Positions 38,542 to 46,418 of a stretch of DNA of 64,000 bases are shown piece by piece. The notes beneath the pieces were generated by a model that saw nothing but the letters and a program-made list of their open reading frames with translations, did no database searches and was not told where the DNA came from. Position 1 is the stretch's first letter. Every line of letters begins with the position of its first letter. The stretch is from Acholeplasma laidlawii (GTDB taxonomy: Bacteria > Bacillota_I > Bacilli_A > Acholeplasmatales > Acholeplasmataceae): assembly GCF_015709225.1 (NCBI RefSeq), contig NZ_JADNRS010000050.1, forward strand, positions 1-64,000, written 5' to 3'. Position numbers and translations under genes: made by a program.

Positions 38542-39183
38542 TTATTCAGTTTCTATTTGACTCGCCGGTGTTAAGTCACCGAGATATGTCTTGAAGTAAT
38601 GTGTCACTGTCTCTTCTTGATCGAGTGCTAGTTCAATATGATATACAACTTCTACATATAGATAAGGTGCATCAACGTTAACAAACCATAATGGTGATTG
38701 AGGTAATATGTGGTTAAATGATATTTTTCTATTTGTACCAAATGTATTTGTAAGTGGTATGGTAGTCACTGCAGATTTAGCATTGATCCATTCTGCTTGA
38801 ACCACAAATTTTACAGTTAATTCGTGAATATGCTTACCAGACTTCACTTCTTGACGTGCCTTGAATGTATAGTGACCATTGGTATCATCATAATATTCAG
38901 GAACTAACATATCCATAAGTTTAATTTGGATAAGTAATTCATCGGTTTCTAAATTAATGATTTCATGATTTGATTCATCTTCGGTTGTGATGAAAGTTGA
39001 TTGAAACTGTGATACGTTATTGCCATCAAAATCAACATTTTTATATTTTAGATAATCCCCTAAATATAGTGCGATGACAAATGTGACGGGTATAATGACT
39101 ATAAATGCAAATAGTATGAGTTTTAGTCGATATTTTAATAACCATCTTCCGAATTTAGAATTTGGTGTATGCTTAGGTACCAT
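38542..39183 (-). CDS. Hypothetical membrane-anchored protein
   Basis: A 213-residue protein not recognised as a known family. A basic N terminus (PKHTPNSKFGRWLLKYRLK) precedes one hydrophobic segment at about 22-42 (LILFAFIVIIPVTFVIALYL), with the remaining about 170 residues outside and beta-rich. There is no lipobox. AAGGAG lies 10 bases before the ATG on the - strand and a TATAAT-like -10 is seen at about 39218-39223. It stands alone between an ABC exporter and rny, and shares their bidirectional terminator. A type II anchored extracytoplasmic protein is the most that can be said. Confidence 0.75.
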   Translation of the reverse strand: MVPKHTPNSKFGRWLLKYRLKLILFAFIVIIPVTFVIALYLGDYLKYKNVDFDGNNVSQFQSTFITTEDESNHEIINLETDELLIQIKLMDMLVPEYYDDTNGHYTFKARQEVKSGKHIHELTVKFVVQAEWINAKSAVTTIPLTNTFGTNRKISFNHILPQSPLWFVNVDAPYLYVEVVYHIELALDQEETVTHYFKTYLGDLTPASQIETE

Positions 39184-41110: not shown

Positions 41111-41881
41111 ATGAAAATATTATTTATTGGTGATATCTATGGTGATCCTGGTATAGATTACTTATTAGAAAATATCACATACCTAAGACAAACATACCAA
41201 CCTAATTTAATCATAGCAAATGCAGAAAATTCTGCAAATGGACGGGGTATTAATAAAAAGATATATAAAAAGCTTATGCAAGCTGGTATATCACTTTTAA
41301 CAATGGGTAACCATACATGGAAAAACCCTGAACTTAAAACTTTTATTGAAGACAGTAACATTATTCGACCAATTAATGACGGTTCAAATTTAGGTAGTGG
41401 TTACAAAATTATGAACTATAATGGTCAAAAAGTATTGGTGATCAATGCACTTGGAAAAGCCTTTATGAATGAAGATTATGAACCGCCATTTATAATGGTT
41501 AAAGAAGTTTTGGATAGAGAAATTTATGATTACGCACTGTTAGATTTTCATGCTGAAACGACCTCTGAAAAAATTGCGATGGCATATTTTTTAGATGGTA
41601 AAGTTGATATGATGGTAGGCACACATACACACATTCAAACAAATGATGATCGATTACTTGATAATGGTACACTCTATTTAACAGATGTAGGTATGACAGG
41701 TCCACTAGAAGGTGTCATTGGTGTTAAAAAAGAAATCATCATCGATAGATTTATTCATGGTCAAAGTAGACCAAATGAAGTAGCACTCGGTAGACGTCAG
41801 TTAAATGCTTGTTTATTTACTTTAAGTCCTACAAAGAAAATAGAAAAAATACATTTAGAGGAAACTCATAAATTAGTTTAA
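41111..41881 (+). CDS. ymdB: YmdB-type metallophosphoesterase
   Basis: A 256-residue binuclear metallophosphoesterase of the TIGR00282/YmdB family; B. subtilis YmdB hydrolyses cyclic nucleotides and affects RNase Y-related and biofilm decisions. Metal ligands are visible in FIGDIYGDPG (start), NAENSANGRG (about 36-45), TMGNHTW (about 64-70), LDFHAETTSEK (about 148) and VGTHTHIQT (about 174). It follows rny as in Bacillus. There is no Shine-Dalgarno site: a TATAAT ends six bases before the ATG and just behind the rny terminator, suggesting a leaderless transcript. Confidence 0.94.
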   Translation: MKILFIGDIYGDPGIDYLLENITYLRQTYQPNLIIANAENSANGRGINKKIYKKLMQAGISLLTMGNHTWKNPELKTFIEDSNIIRPINDGSNLGSGYKIMNYNGQKVLVINALGKAFMNEDYEPPFIMVKEVLDREIYDYALLDFHAETTSEKIAMAYFLDGKVDMMVGTHTHIQTNDDRLLDNGTLYLTDVGMTGPLEGVIGVKKEIIIDRFIHGQSRPNEVALGRRQLNACLFTLSPTKKIEKIHLEETHKLV

Positions 41882-41927: not shown

Positions 41928-41957
41928 TTGTTTTTATAAATTGTTATATGTTATAAT
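41928..41957 (+). promoter_or_regulatory. Promoter of the SAP-like membrane protein gene
   Basis: A -35 TTGTTT (41928-41933), 18-base spacer and extended -10 TGT-TATAAT (41952-41957), followed by AAGGGGGAA as ribosome site before the ATG at 41991. Confidence 0.65.
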
Positions 41958-41990: not shown

Positions 41991-43877
41991 ATGGCAGTAT
42001 TCAATAAAGAGGGTTTGTTTGTTACAAAAAAAGGGAAATACCAAGTAGATGACTTGGTCACTAAGTTAAGTTTCGTATCAGGAACTTATTTAGTTGATTT
42101 TTTACAATCTATTGGTTTAACTTTACCGCGTAAATTACGCATGAATGTTTTATTCAAAGTTTTAAAAGAACCTGTTGAGCGTACAATTGAGGAAAGAAAG
42201 TCACTTGCCGATGAAATGGGTTATAGATTAACATGGTTTAGTAAGTTTACGGATACACAATTAGTAAACTTATTAGAATGGTATAAATCGACATCCTTAG
42301 GCAATCTTTATCTCACCGGTTTCTGGAGAGATTTTTTAGACTACATCGTTGTTAAAGGTGTATCGGATAGTGATATTGATAGGTTATTTACAGAAGCTGA
42401 TAATGCAATTAAAACCAACAAACGCTCACTTACTCTAGACTTCAATAAAGCTTTAAATGCTGTTTTATATGATGAGAACGGAGAAATTGATGGTGTAACA
42501 CAAGCTCAATTTAGACTGGTTACTTATGAAGCAACCACTTTAACTGAGCTAAGAGGTATTGGTGAAAAGTATAACGCACCAATTCCAAAGCGCTTAAAGA
42601 AAAATGAAATGCTTCAAGTGATTTTGGATAAATTAAAAGAACGCAATGAGCTTACGCCTGAACTTGAAAAGAAATTAAAAACTCAAAATATTATTTTACT
42701 TGAAAGATTTGCTAAAGATCATGACATCAAAGTTTCTACAGAACTTAAAAAAGAAGAGATTATTGAATTTATTCTTTCAAATGCAGAAGAAACTAAGTCG
42801 ACATATTTCGTACCACAGTCTCAAGAAGTATACGAAAATCTTGATGAACCAGTAGTTAAAAAGGAAGCACCTAAACCAGAAGTTAAAATTGAACCAGTGG
42901 TTGAACCTAAACCGGTGATTATTGAACCTACTATGACGCCGAATGTTGTCGTAAACTCAGATGTCATTGATTATAGACCTCAACTTGATAAACTAACTGA
43001 AGCTTTTAACAGATTAGCTGAAAGTTTCAAAGATAAAGAATTTAGTGTTAACATTGAAAATTCAATTAAACCTGAATCTGTGGTTGTTCAAGAACCTGTT
43101 ATTAGAGAAGAACAAGTCGTTAGACCACAACCAACGAATATGATGGTGAATCAAGAAGCACTTATTCAAGAACTATTAAGAGAAGATGATTCTGACGCAC
43201 CAGAACTTGATTCTGAAAAACCATTTGATATTGATGGTAAGATTATAACCAAAGAATTCAAATACAAACGAGGATTCGGCGTATTTGCAGCATTATTATC
43301 ATTAGTTTTTGCAGTATTATTTGCTTGGCTTTACCTACTTTCATTTGGTCTACTTGTTGCACCATTCTTAGTGAAAGCTAACCAAATGGTCAATGATTTA
43401 GATGCTACTATGAAACTAGTAGTTAATTATGGAACCATTGTACTTGCACTAATCAACATATATGCCTTCATTATACTTTTAAGAAAACCTTCTAAGCAGT
43501 CACTTAAAGTCTTAGGATTTATTACACTATTCACAGGGTTTATTATTACAGGATTATTCGTGTTTGCATCTATTGGAACAAAAGTTCAAGTTATAGAACA
43601 AAAAGAAGAAACTGAAATAACTAAATTAACTGAAGCTATAAAGAAAATGAGTCATCCTGATCATAAGCGTAAGGTAAAAAAATCACGTGGGTTCATGTTT
43701 GGCTTATTAGCATTTATTACATTTGTGCTTTTAGTATTTATAGTTTTCTATGGCATTTGGAGATTAGAATTCACTTATGGATATGAAAATATACCATTTA
43801 TAGGACCATTATTAAGAGATTACATCATAGAACCACTATTTGGTTCTGCGCATGATATGTCACAATATTATGTATAA
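41991..43877 (+). CDS. Multi-pass membrane protein with SAP-like repeats
   Basis: A 628-residue protein of no recognised family. The soluble N-terminal part contains three segments of the same helix-extended-helix shape as SAP/Rho-N domains: about 33-59 (LVDFLQSIGLTLPRKLRMN), 182-218 (LRGIGEKYNAPIPKRLKKNE) and 228-265 (LERFAKDHDIKVSTELKKEE). A Pro/Glu/Val-rich linker follows (about 275-400). Four hydrophobic segments lie at about 430-463, 479-499, 507-530 and 567-592. SAP-like modules often bind nucleic acid, so a DNA- or RNA-membrane tether is conceivable; this is inference. It has its own promoter between ymdB and mutS. Confidence 0.75.
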   Translation: MAVFNKEGLFVTKKGKYQVDDLVTKLSFVSGTYLVDFLQSIGLTLPRKLRMNVLFKVLKEPVERTIEERKSLADEMGYRLTWFSKFTDTQLVNLLEWYKSTSLGNLYLTGFWRDFLDYIVVKGVSDSDIDRLFTEADNAIKTNKRSLTLDFNKALNAVLYDENGEIDGVTQAQFRLVTYEATTLTELRGIGEKYNAPIPKRLKKNEMLQVILDKLKERNELTPELEKKLKTQNIILLERFAKDHDIKVSTELKKEEIIEFILSNAEETKSTYFVPQSQEVYENLDEPVVKKEAPKPEVKIEPVVEPKPVIIEPTMTPNVVVNSDVIDYRPQLDKLTEAFNRLAESFKDKEFSVNIENSIKPESVVVQEPVIREEQVVRPQPTNMMVNQEALIQELLREDDSDAPELDSEKPFDIDGKIITKEFKYKRGFGVFAALLSLVFAVLFAWLYLLSFGLLVAPFLVKANQMVNDLDATMKLVVNYGTIVLALINIYAFIILLRKPSKQSLKVLGFITLFTGFIITGLFVFASIGTKVQVIEQKEETEITKLTEAIKKMSHPDHKRKVKKSRGFMFGLLAFITFVLLVFIVFYGIWRLEFTYGYENIPFIGPLLRDYIIEPLFGSAHDMSQYYV

Positions 43878-43892
43878 AATAAGGAAGTAAAC

Positions 43893-46418
43893 ATGTCAGA
43901 TATTTCTAAATACACACCTATGATGCAACAATACTTAAAAATTAAAGAAGACTACGCAGATGCGATAGTCTTTTTTAGACTTGGTGATTTCTATGAAATG
44001 TTTTTTGATGACGCCATTACTGCATCCAAGGTTTTAGAAATAGCTCTTACAAAAAAAGAAGCTGGTCAAACCGTTCCAATGTGCGGTGTTCCACATCATG
44101 CTGCAAAAGTTTATATTCAAAAACTTATCACTAAAGGCTTTAAAATAGCAATTGTTGAACAAACATCAGAACCTGGTAAGGGTTTAGTTGAACGCGAAGT
44201 CGTTCAACTCATTACTCCAGGTATGATTATTGATGATGATATTCTGCCTAAGAATGAATATAATTTTATTGGATCTGTTTCTTTATCAGAATATGGATAT
44301 ATATTAAGTTATGCAGATATTTCAACGGGTGATACATTCATCTTAAATGGTCTAACAAAACAAGCTTTAACGGATGAAGTATCCAATTTAAAACTCAAAG
44401 AAATTGTTTTAACAAACACTTCGGATACTTACTTGTTAAACTTTTTTAAACAAGAAAATATTTTAGTGTCCATCTATACGAACCAAGAAGTTCAGAATAC
44501 TAGAATTGTAAGAAACTTAAAAGAAAAACATCTTAAAGAAGCAGGTTCTTTATTAATTAATTACTTAGAAAAAGAATCTAAACTTGATTTATCTCACTTG
44601 ATGCCGTTTGAAAGTGTCATCATCGATCAGTATATGAGACTTGATTATCAAGTCTTAAATCACTTAGAGTTAACAGAGTCCTTAACAGGTAACATTAATT
44701 CTACCTTGATTCAGTGGATTGATAAAACATCCACTGCAATGGGTTCTAGATTACTTAGATATGAATTAACACATCCTTTAAAAGATAAAGCATTACTCGA
44801 AAAAAGATATGATTACATTGAAGCATTTACACAATTTGAACCAAGAAATAGACTAGAATCGATATTAGAACAAGTTTATGACTTAAATAGATTAGTGGGA
44901 CGTGTTTCAAGTAACCAAACACACGCAAGAGATTTAGTTCAACTTAAAACAACGCTTAGCCTTATTCCAGAGTTTAAAGAAGTTTTATCCTCATTTAATA
45001 ACCCACTTATTGATGAAATGAATGACAAGGTTGATGTTTTTGAAACTTTATTTACATTACTGGATGCATCCATTGAAAACGAACCACCCTTAACGATTAA
45101 AGAAGGTGGCATCATTAAAGATGGATATGATGAAACTTTAGATGAATTTAGAAGTATTGCTAAAAACGGTGATTTATGGCTAGAAAAATTTGAAAAAGAG
45201 GAAAAAGAACGTACCGGAATTAAGAATTTAAAGGTAGGTTATAACCGCGTATTTGGATATTTTATTGAAGTATCCAAAGGTAATATTCCATTTATTCAAG
45301 ATGAGTTTGGTTATATTAGAAAACAAACACTAGCTAATGCAGAACGTTATATTACAGAAGATTTAAAAAATGCAGAAAATAAGATTTTATCTTCTAAAGA
45401 TAGAGCGGACAAATTAGAGTATGAAATATTTAATCAAATCAAAGAAACTGCTAAAACTTATACTCATGAACTTCAATTACTAAGTCAAATTATTGCCTCA
45501 GTTGATAAATATATTAGTTTATCAAAAGTAGCAGAAATGTATAAATATGTAAGACCAAAACTCAATCATAACCGGATTGTAGATATAGAAGATGGACGTC
45601 ACCCGGTTGTGGAACAGCATGTGGAGTTCATTAAAAACCATATTCACATGAAACCAAGTGAAATATTTATTTTAACTGGTCCAAACATGAGTGGTAAGTC
45701 GACATATATGCGTATGTTTGCAGTGATAACTGTTATGGCTCAAACGGGTATGTTTGTGCCAGCTACATCTGCAAATCTACCGATATATGATGCAATATTT
45801 ACACGCATTGGTTCAAGTGATGATATTTCAGGTGGTAAGTCTACATTTATGGTTGAAATGGTTGAGGCAAATGATGCACTCACCTATGCAACAGAAAACT
45901 CACTTATTTTATTTGATGAAATAGGAAGAGGTACTGCAACCTATGATGGTCTTGCACTTGCTCAGGCGATGATTGAGTATGTACATACCCAAATCAAAGC
46001 TCAAATGATGTTTTCAACTCATTATCATGAACTTACTAAATTATCAGAAAAACATGATCTTATAACTAACTTACACGTTAAAGCTATCGAACAAAAAGAC
46101 CATATGGTATTCCTACACCAAGTTGAACTTGGTTCATCTGATAAATCCTATGGTATTCAAGTAGCAGCCCTAGCACATCTACCTGATCCTGTGATTAAAC
46201 GTGCGAAATACTTACTTAAAAAGTTAGAAAAAGATGGAAAAGGTATTGACCATAATCTATTTATGTTTGAAGAAAAAGTAGAACTTGGTCAAATTATACC
46301 GCATGATGTTCAAGATTTATTGAACCACATCAATGACTTGGATATTAATCAAATGACACCGCTTGATGCATTGATTAAATTAAAATATCTACAAAGTTTA
46401 AGTAAAGATAAAAAATAA
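43893..46418 (+). CDS. mutS: DNA mismatch repair protein MutS
   Basis: MutS recognises mismatches and small loops. The 841 residues carry the mismatch-reading Phe-x-Glu in GDFYEMFFDD (about 32-41), the connector and lever domains, and the ATPase with Walker A GPNMSGKSTYMR (about 598-609), a signature-like DISGGKSTFMVEM, and Walker B LILFDEIGRGTATYDG (about 671-686). The C-terminal clamp-interaction/tetramer tail is present but short. AAGGAAG precedes the ATG. It starts the run mutS-mutL-miaA-aroK-aroQ-efp. Confidence 0.98.
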   Translation: MSDISKYTPMMQQYLKIKEDYADAIVFFRLGDFYEMFFDDAITASKVLEIALTKKEAGQTVPMCGVPHHAAKVYIQKLITKGFKIAIVEQTSEPGKGLVEREVVQLITPGMIIDDDILPKNEYNFIGSVSLSEYGYILSYADISTGDTFILNGLTKQALTDEVSNLKLKEIVLTNTSDTYLLNFFKQENILVSIYTNQEVQNTRIVRNLKEKHLKEAGSLLINYLEKESKLDLSHLMPFESVIIDQYMRLDYQVLNHLELTESLTGNINSTLIQWIDKTSTAMGSRLLRYELTHPLKDKALLEKRYDYIEAFTQFEPRNRLESILEQVYDLNRLVGRVSSNQTHARDLVQLKTTLSLIPEFKEVLSSFNNPLIDEMNDKVDVFETLFTLLDASIENEPPLTIKEGGIIKDGYDETLDEFRSIAKNGDLWLEKFEKEEKERTGIKNLKVGYNRVFGYFIEVSKGNIPFIQDEFGYIRKQTLANAERYITEDLKNAENKILSSKDRADKLEYEIFNQIKETAKTYTHELQLLSQIIASVDKYISLSKVAEMYKYVRPKLNHNRIVDIEDGRHPVVEQHVEFIKNHIHMKPSEIFILTGPNMSGKSTYMRMFAVITVMAQTGMFVPATSANLPIYDAIFTRIGSSDDISGGKSTFMVEMVEANDALTYATENSLILFDEIGRGTATYDGLALAQAMIEYVHTQIKAQMMFSTHYHELTKLSEKHDLITNLHVKAIEQKDHMVFLHQVELGSSDKSYGIQVAALAHLPDPVIKRAKYLLKKLEKDGKGIDHNLFMFEEKVELGQIIPHDVQDLLNHINDLDINQMTPLDALIKLKYLQSLSKDKK

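Follow-up and report, generated by a model that had tools for sequence, protein, structure and literature searches.

Genomic context of gene X

The DNA analyzed here, referred to as the window, is a stretch of 64,000 nucleotides of Acholeplasma laidlawii (contig NZ_JADNRS010000050.1). Between ymdB (41111-41881) and mutS (43893-46418), an open reading frame with an ATG start is located at positions 41991-43877 of the forward strand, as the initial annotation had proposed; it encodes a protein of 628 amino acids, and we named it X. A genome search identified X as a single-copy gene in its own genome. The protein is composed of a conserved N-terminal domain (residues 1-275, positions 41991-42815), delimited by AlphaFold2 modelling, the family profile and dN/dS and predicted to lie on the cytosolic side, followed by a Glu/Val/Pro-rich linker recognized by its composition (residues 276-428, positions 42816-43274) and by four hydrophobic segments detected with the Kyte-Doolittle scale (43281-43748), all on the forward strand. 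This architecture is new, built from known modules, and in the open-access literature, judged from titles and abstract openings, no paper describing X was found. A chance or spurious open reading frame was ruled out by the matches to X in 57 of the 88 genomes of the family and by the whole-gene dN/dS of 0.142. A phage origin was also considered and rejected: a scan of viral_contigs found no relative, and the PHROG matches over the domain were short and located mainly on the module stretches described below.

The gene neighbourhood was surveyed in 80 chosen stretches, taken from the family, order and class matches, together with the window; they contain 82 X genes, which are related to each other and are not independent. 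X is located in the rny/mutS locus in 67 of the 82 cases, and in many lineages the gene order is rny-ymdB-miaB-ymcA-X-mutS-mutL, a block that ranks among the best conserved in the class. The neighbours were identified by their Pfam matches (Radical_SAM/UPF0004/TRAM of the MiaB type, Com_YlbF for the ymcA product, RNase_Y_N/KH/HD, and YmdB), and MutS by TIGR01070. The 67 locus copies are directly followed by mutS (61), miaA (3), another gene (2) or a contig end (1), and directly preceded by ymcA (37), miaB (8), ymdB (7) or other genes or a contig end (15). An open reading frame of 213 amino acids without a Pfam match (38542-39183 of the window, reverse strand), divergent from rny, is found beside rny in most loci of the family.

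The initial annotation had also assigned a strong promoter to X. A promoter-like sequence, TTGTTT and TATAAT separated by 18 nt and with an extended TG, was read by eye and then checked at positions 41928-41957 of the forward strand, ending 33 nt before the start codon of X. The word "strong" could not be retained, as this sequence is absent from the list of a generic consensus promoter scan and its -35 element matches at 3 of 6 positions. Promoter-like sequences are, however, conserved upstream of X: the mean score of 81 stretches was 9.33, compared with 6.35 when each stretch was resampled 20 times with a first-order model, and scores of at least 11 were reached by 13 of the 81 stretches (16%), compared with 1.9% in the resampled sequence. 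The gap between ymcA and X is 32-180 nt, and that between X and mutS is mostly 6-33 nt (15 nt in the window). On account of these gaps and of the enrichment of promoter-like sequences before X, X probably leads a mutS-mutL transcript, to which mutS of the window would also belong.

Sequence analysis of the helix-extended-helix modules

Three repeats of one helix-extended-helix (HeH) pattern had been noticed in the soluble part of the protein. We located them at residues 26-66 (m1, positions 42066-42188), 178-220 (m2, 42522-42650) and 228-268 (m3, 42672-42794), all on the forward strand. The whole X protein matched the Pfam family Rho_N (PF07498) over two stretches with 26.2 bits, the cut-off being 24.9. 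When the modules were cut out and analyzed alone, Rho_N was matched by m2 (E 8.3e-5) and m3 (E 9.9e-4), and no Rho_N model matched m1, whose kinship to m2 and m3 is detectable by profile comparison only. Using profiles built from 109 family sequences and 40 column-shuffled controls per pair, hhalign gave scores of 37.0 for m2 and m3 (P 2.7e-9; best shuffled control 14.3), 22.9 for m1 and m2 (P 6.6e-6; 12.0) and 16.7 for m1 and m3 (P 3.5e-4; 12.2); an additional control pair, h80-h100, is void, as its two segments overlap. Since the three scores exceed those of all column-shuffled controls, we consider the three repeats real and m1 a diverged copy. The motif originally given for them, P/S.RLKK.E....IL, describes m2 and, loosely, m3, but not the diverged m1.

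A comparison with the SAP, Rho_N and LEM families placed Rho_N first. It was matched at E up to 0.1 in all 46 relatives scanned, and a member from family f19 reached E 5.9e-12. Many relatives are under the Rho_N cut-off (e.g. 24.5 and 17.8 bits). Matches to other families were weaker: HeH (PF12949)/LEM-type matches in 8 of the 46 relatives (best E 0.021), and, among more distant members, SAP_new25 in L172 (E 0.0061) and a weak match to Ish1. Also among these, m2 of a member from family f16 is similar to the C-terminal region of the PHROG that bears the name endonuclease VII (E 4.1e-8). The profile matches support the assignment of the X modules to the HeH superfamily, with Rho_N rather than SAP as the best family. 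What X has in common with Rho_N is the profile match of m2 and m3 and the helix-extended-helix arrangement in the models; it differs from Rho_N proteins in that its three modules are part of a larger helical domain that is joined to a membrane anchor, and no match to the Rho ATPase over its cut-off was found in X. A similarity of X to AmaP (NCBIfam, E 0.11) was dropped as too weak. The only other Rho_N module found in the genome of X is that of ribosomal protein S2, an RNA-bound protein (contig C43, L199:571-1611), whose Lys/Glu/Ala/Val-rich C-terminal extension ends in Rho_N (E 2.8e-9).

Between X and its closest orthologue (L002), the single pair from which dN/dS was calculated, the value was 0.075 for the conserved domain, 0.024 for m2 and m3 together and 0.28 for m1, compared with 0.21 for the linker, 0.175 for the membrane part and the above-mentioned 0.142 for the whole gene. 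Residues K193, P199, R201 and K204 of m2 are near-invariant, and the near-invariant lysines 204 and 254 occupy the equivalent place of m2 and m3. The net charge is +3 in m1 (mean of the family +2.6), +2 in m2 (+2.6) and -2 in m3 (-0.1), and for the whole domain the protein of the window has a net charge of 0, the mean of the 109 members being -2.2. The middle part (residues 67-177; charge -5 in the window, mean -6.1) looks like a protein surface, because it is acidic and contains conserved aromatic residues.

Predicted structure of the conserved domain

Residues 1-285 were modelled by AlphaFold2 from 46 sequences with a pLDDT of 90.9 and a pTM of 0.82. As assigned by DSSP, the model contains the expected helix-extended-helix arrangement at all three places, residues 31-68 (helices 31-40 and 47-68), 184-217 (helices 184-193 and 204-217) and 234-264 (helices 234-243 and 254-264). 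When residues 164-273 were modelled alone (pLDDT 83.4, pTM 0.60), the elements of m2 and m3 were unchanged.

Foldseek searches of the solved structures with the domain model or the two-module model gave no match at E <=0.001. In VIA, the best match of the domain model was to Tex (model residues 203-247; Z 5.6 with an rmsd of 1.5 A over 44 residues), and that of the two-module model had a Z of 4.3 (rmsd 3.0 A over 48 residues); for these predicted models, such Z values are too low to name a structural relative. No SAP, LEM or Rho chain was present among the fold matches listed, which excludes nothing. A profile search of the PDB sequences with the whole domain gave nothing up to E 1. With m2 and m3, two designed repeat proteins were obtained (8.2e-5 and 3.8e-4), their scores being sums of many tiny matches, none of which passes alone, and also chain 1jjr (E 0.25), the SAP region of Ku70. 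We do not claim a new fold for the modelled domain.

Linker and membrane anchor

The linker had been described as rich in Pro and Glu. Its 153 residues include 22 Glu and 15 Pro, and Val (19) is also abundant; both its length and its content differ strongly among the X relatives. It is followed in X by the hydrophobic segments 431-449, 477-495, 507-525 and 568-586, which correspond to the four membrane helices originally proposed. Among 109 distinct members, some of which are open reading frames ending at contig edges, one hydrophobic segment after residue 250 was found in 88, four in 8, two in 2 and none in 11. The four-segment form is restricted, among these 109 members, to the window's genus (8 of 8).

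In all of the 88 single-segment members, Lys and Arg are more numerous on the N-terminal than on the C-terminal side of the segment (mean 5.1 vs 0.4), and this excess places the conserved domain inside the cell, in agreement with the membrane attachment of the modules that had been suggested for X. In the window's genus, the loop between segments 3 and 4 contains 7-14 Lys/Arg, so that segment 3 may not cross the membrane fully. The four hydrophobic segments are thus present, but once the charges are counted, four regular crossings fit poorly. By its position and the preceding Lys/Arg cluster, segment 4 corresponds to the single anchor of the other genera. A conserved C-terminal tail motif was also considered and dropped, as a loose pattern was found in 34 of 108 sequences and a stricter one in 18.

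Ten relatives, picked mainly for their long linkers, were analyzed for linker domains: Flg_new (List_Bact_rpt, the Listeria-Bacteroides repeat) was found in three and five Big_3 Ig-like domains in one (L009:616-2409, L011:1501-3372, L042:107-2836 and L108:7001-8932). Flg_new and Big_3 domains are usually found outside the cell, and their presence is odd for a stretch that the charges place inside. Either these repeats act as nothing but spacers, or some members of the family cooperate with surface proteins. Extra X copies adjoin Flg_new-repeat proteins, away from mutS, in genomes G018 and G019 (L059:2830-4227, L061:1340-5099 and L062:3313-6526), whose MutS matches are sub-cut-off only. A further extra copy (L183:2976-7335) is preceded by a signal peptidase gene of the S26 type and by several small proteins that look exported.

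Distribution of X and co-occurrence with neighbouring genes

Of the 31 family genomes without a match to X, 29 belong to the reduced genus g11, and the other two are incomplete (80% and 69%). In the order, the domain profile matched 119 of 160 genomes, one of them with a weak partial match in g11, and in the class 101 of 395 genomes, including other families, a few of these matches being partial; in a phylum-wide draw it matched 75 of 392 genomes, many of them with partial Rho_N matches. X is a gene conserved in the majority of the genera of this bacterial order. No match to X was found in genera g17, g19 and g21.

In the same 160 genomes of the order, RNase Y was found in 154, Com_YlbF in 110 and a MutS1-type match in 131 (over the cut-off in 121). 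All 8 genomes of the window's genus contain X and none contains Com_YlbF (YlbF/YmcA), and Com_YlbF is kept without a match to X in g17 (3 of 3). In family f23, X and RNase Y are present in 5 of 5 genomes examined, MutS matches being sub-cut-off only, and X is still located beside rny and miaB after the loss of mutS; in g7, X is present as diverged copies (2 of 2), and no MutS1 match exceeds the cut-off. On the other hand, MutS1 is found without a match to X in genomes of g17 and g21, and g11 keeps RNase Y in 28 of 29 genomes, with neither Com_YlbF nor MutS1. As co-occurrence is broken both ways, X is neither an obligate Y-complex subunit, ruled out by the Com_YlbF-free genomes with X and the Com_YlbF-bearing ones without it, nor a dedicated mismatch-repair or MutS subunit, ruled out by X without over-cut-off MutS1 in f23 and MutS1 without X in g17 and g21.

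Possible function of X

SAP/Rho_N-type modules of other proteins often bind DNA or RNA, and HeH folds also serve protein binding. In SAP domains the binding side is the loop before the second helix. We consider it most likely, with a probability of about 0.5, that X holds nucleic acid at the membrane; the modules, the predicted fold, the anchor with its orientation, the conservation and the gene order come from the computations, and both the ligand and the tether function are what we infer. X is predicted to be anchored in the membrane, its N-terminal domain staying in the cytosol, and a flexible linker would present the three HeH (Rho_N/SAP-like) modules at the inner membrane face; basic m1 and m2 (with K193, P199, R201 and K204) and constrained m3 would bind RNA or DNA, which would thereby be kept near the membrane. 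Nucleic acid binding is made plausible by the Rho_N family and the conserved basic residues, and is weakened by the overall neutrality of the conserved domain. The sequence comparisons and models that argue for a tether comprise the Rho_N matches in 46 of 46 relatives, their strength in the f19 member, the endonuclease VII match of m2 in f16 and the HeH arrangement in a confident model; K204/K254, the low dN/dS of m2 and m3, the orientation in 88 of 88 members, the locus of RNA and DNA genes and the Rho_N module of S2 also point in this direction. Arguing against it are the domain charge of 0 and its negative family mean, the charge of -2 in m3, the lack of a significant fold match and the surface-type linker domains, as well as the use of HeH folds in protein binding.

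The most probable alternative is a protein scaffold, in which the HeH modules would keep another protein at the membrane and make no contact with nucleic acid. The neutral or negative domain, the acidic m3 of the window, the surface-like middle part and the linkers with Big_3 or Flg_new repeats are consistent with it. Against it stand the basic charge of m1 and m2 (each with a mean of +2.6) and the near-invariant Lys/Arg just ahead of the second helix, in the loop by which SAP domains bind. We regard a scaffold as possible, although somewhat doubtful.

Two narrower versions of nucleic acid binding were also weighed. The modules could bind chromosomal DNA and fix the nucleoid to the membrane, perhaps in a link with mismatch repair. 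The position of X directly before mutS in 61 of 67 loci, mostly with the short gap given above, its own promoter-like sequence and the weak HeH and Ish1 matches would fit this. In the Heh1/Heh2/LEM proteins of the inner nuclear membrane, a HeH module, a disordered linker and membrane segments follow each other in this order, which is also that of X, the module being on the inner side in both. However, the best family of X is Rho_N and not SAP, the domain is electrically neutral, and the persistence of X without over-cut-off MutS1 in f23 (5 of 5) and g7 (2 of 2, diverged copies) indicates that X is not a dedicated MutS partner; we think DNA tethering unlikely. X differs from the Heh1/Heh2/LEM proteins by its three modules, in the absence of a nuclear envelope and of evidence of common descent. 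That X might be their convergent bacterial counterpart, in which an array of several HeH modules on a disordered tether would attach either the nucleoid or nascent transcripts to the membrane, is similarly a speculative proposal with the odds against it. If true, such a counterpart would exist in wall-less and related bacteria. Little is known of how wall-less bacteria position their chromosomes and transcripts at the membrane, and as a putative nucleic acid tether X is a candidate for this role that can be tested directly in harmless laboratory species.

Alternatively, the Rho_N modules could bind transcripts and present them to RNase Y, by analogy with RHON1, which shares the Rho_N module with X and differs from it in being soluble. 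RHON1 is a chloroplast RNA-binding protein that works with the major endoribonuclease RNase E (PMC7154860) and not with RNase Y, and the processing of transcripts requires the Com_YlbF factor, the ymcA product, together with RNase Y (PMC10470536). The link of X to RNase Y, which the initial annotation had made, is solely one of gene neighbourhood: the rny-ymdB-miaB-ymcA-X order is found in many lineages, ricA (ymcA) of the RNase Y specificity complex RicA/RicF/RicT immediately precedes 37 of the 67 locus copies of X, and in f23 X stays beside rny and miaB with mutS lost. X itself is not a Com_YlbF protein, and the window's genus keeps it without Com_YlbF; transcription of X probably starts at a promoter of its own and continues into mutS; and g11 keeps RNase Y without X. 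Moreover, since nearly all genomes of the order have RNase Y, its joint presence with X says little. An RNA-specific helper of RNase Y appears to us the least probable of these proposals, and the broader reading, nucleic acid held at the membrane, is preferred.

Also at odds with such a helper, genome G115 has rny, ymdB, miaB, ymcA, mutS and mutL in the usual sequence together with another open reading frame, of 178 amino acids, and no X; the E-values for X in loci of this type were obtained by searching very small sets without a filter and were read as absence.

At the usual place of X, genome G127 contains a lipoprotein-like open reading frame of 437 amino acids. Genomes of family f2 without X likewise contain a lipoprotein-like open reading frame of about 440 amino acids after ymcA (L207:3496-4809 and L212:5265-6623), located directly before mutS in L207.
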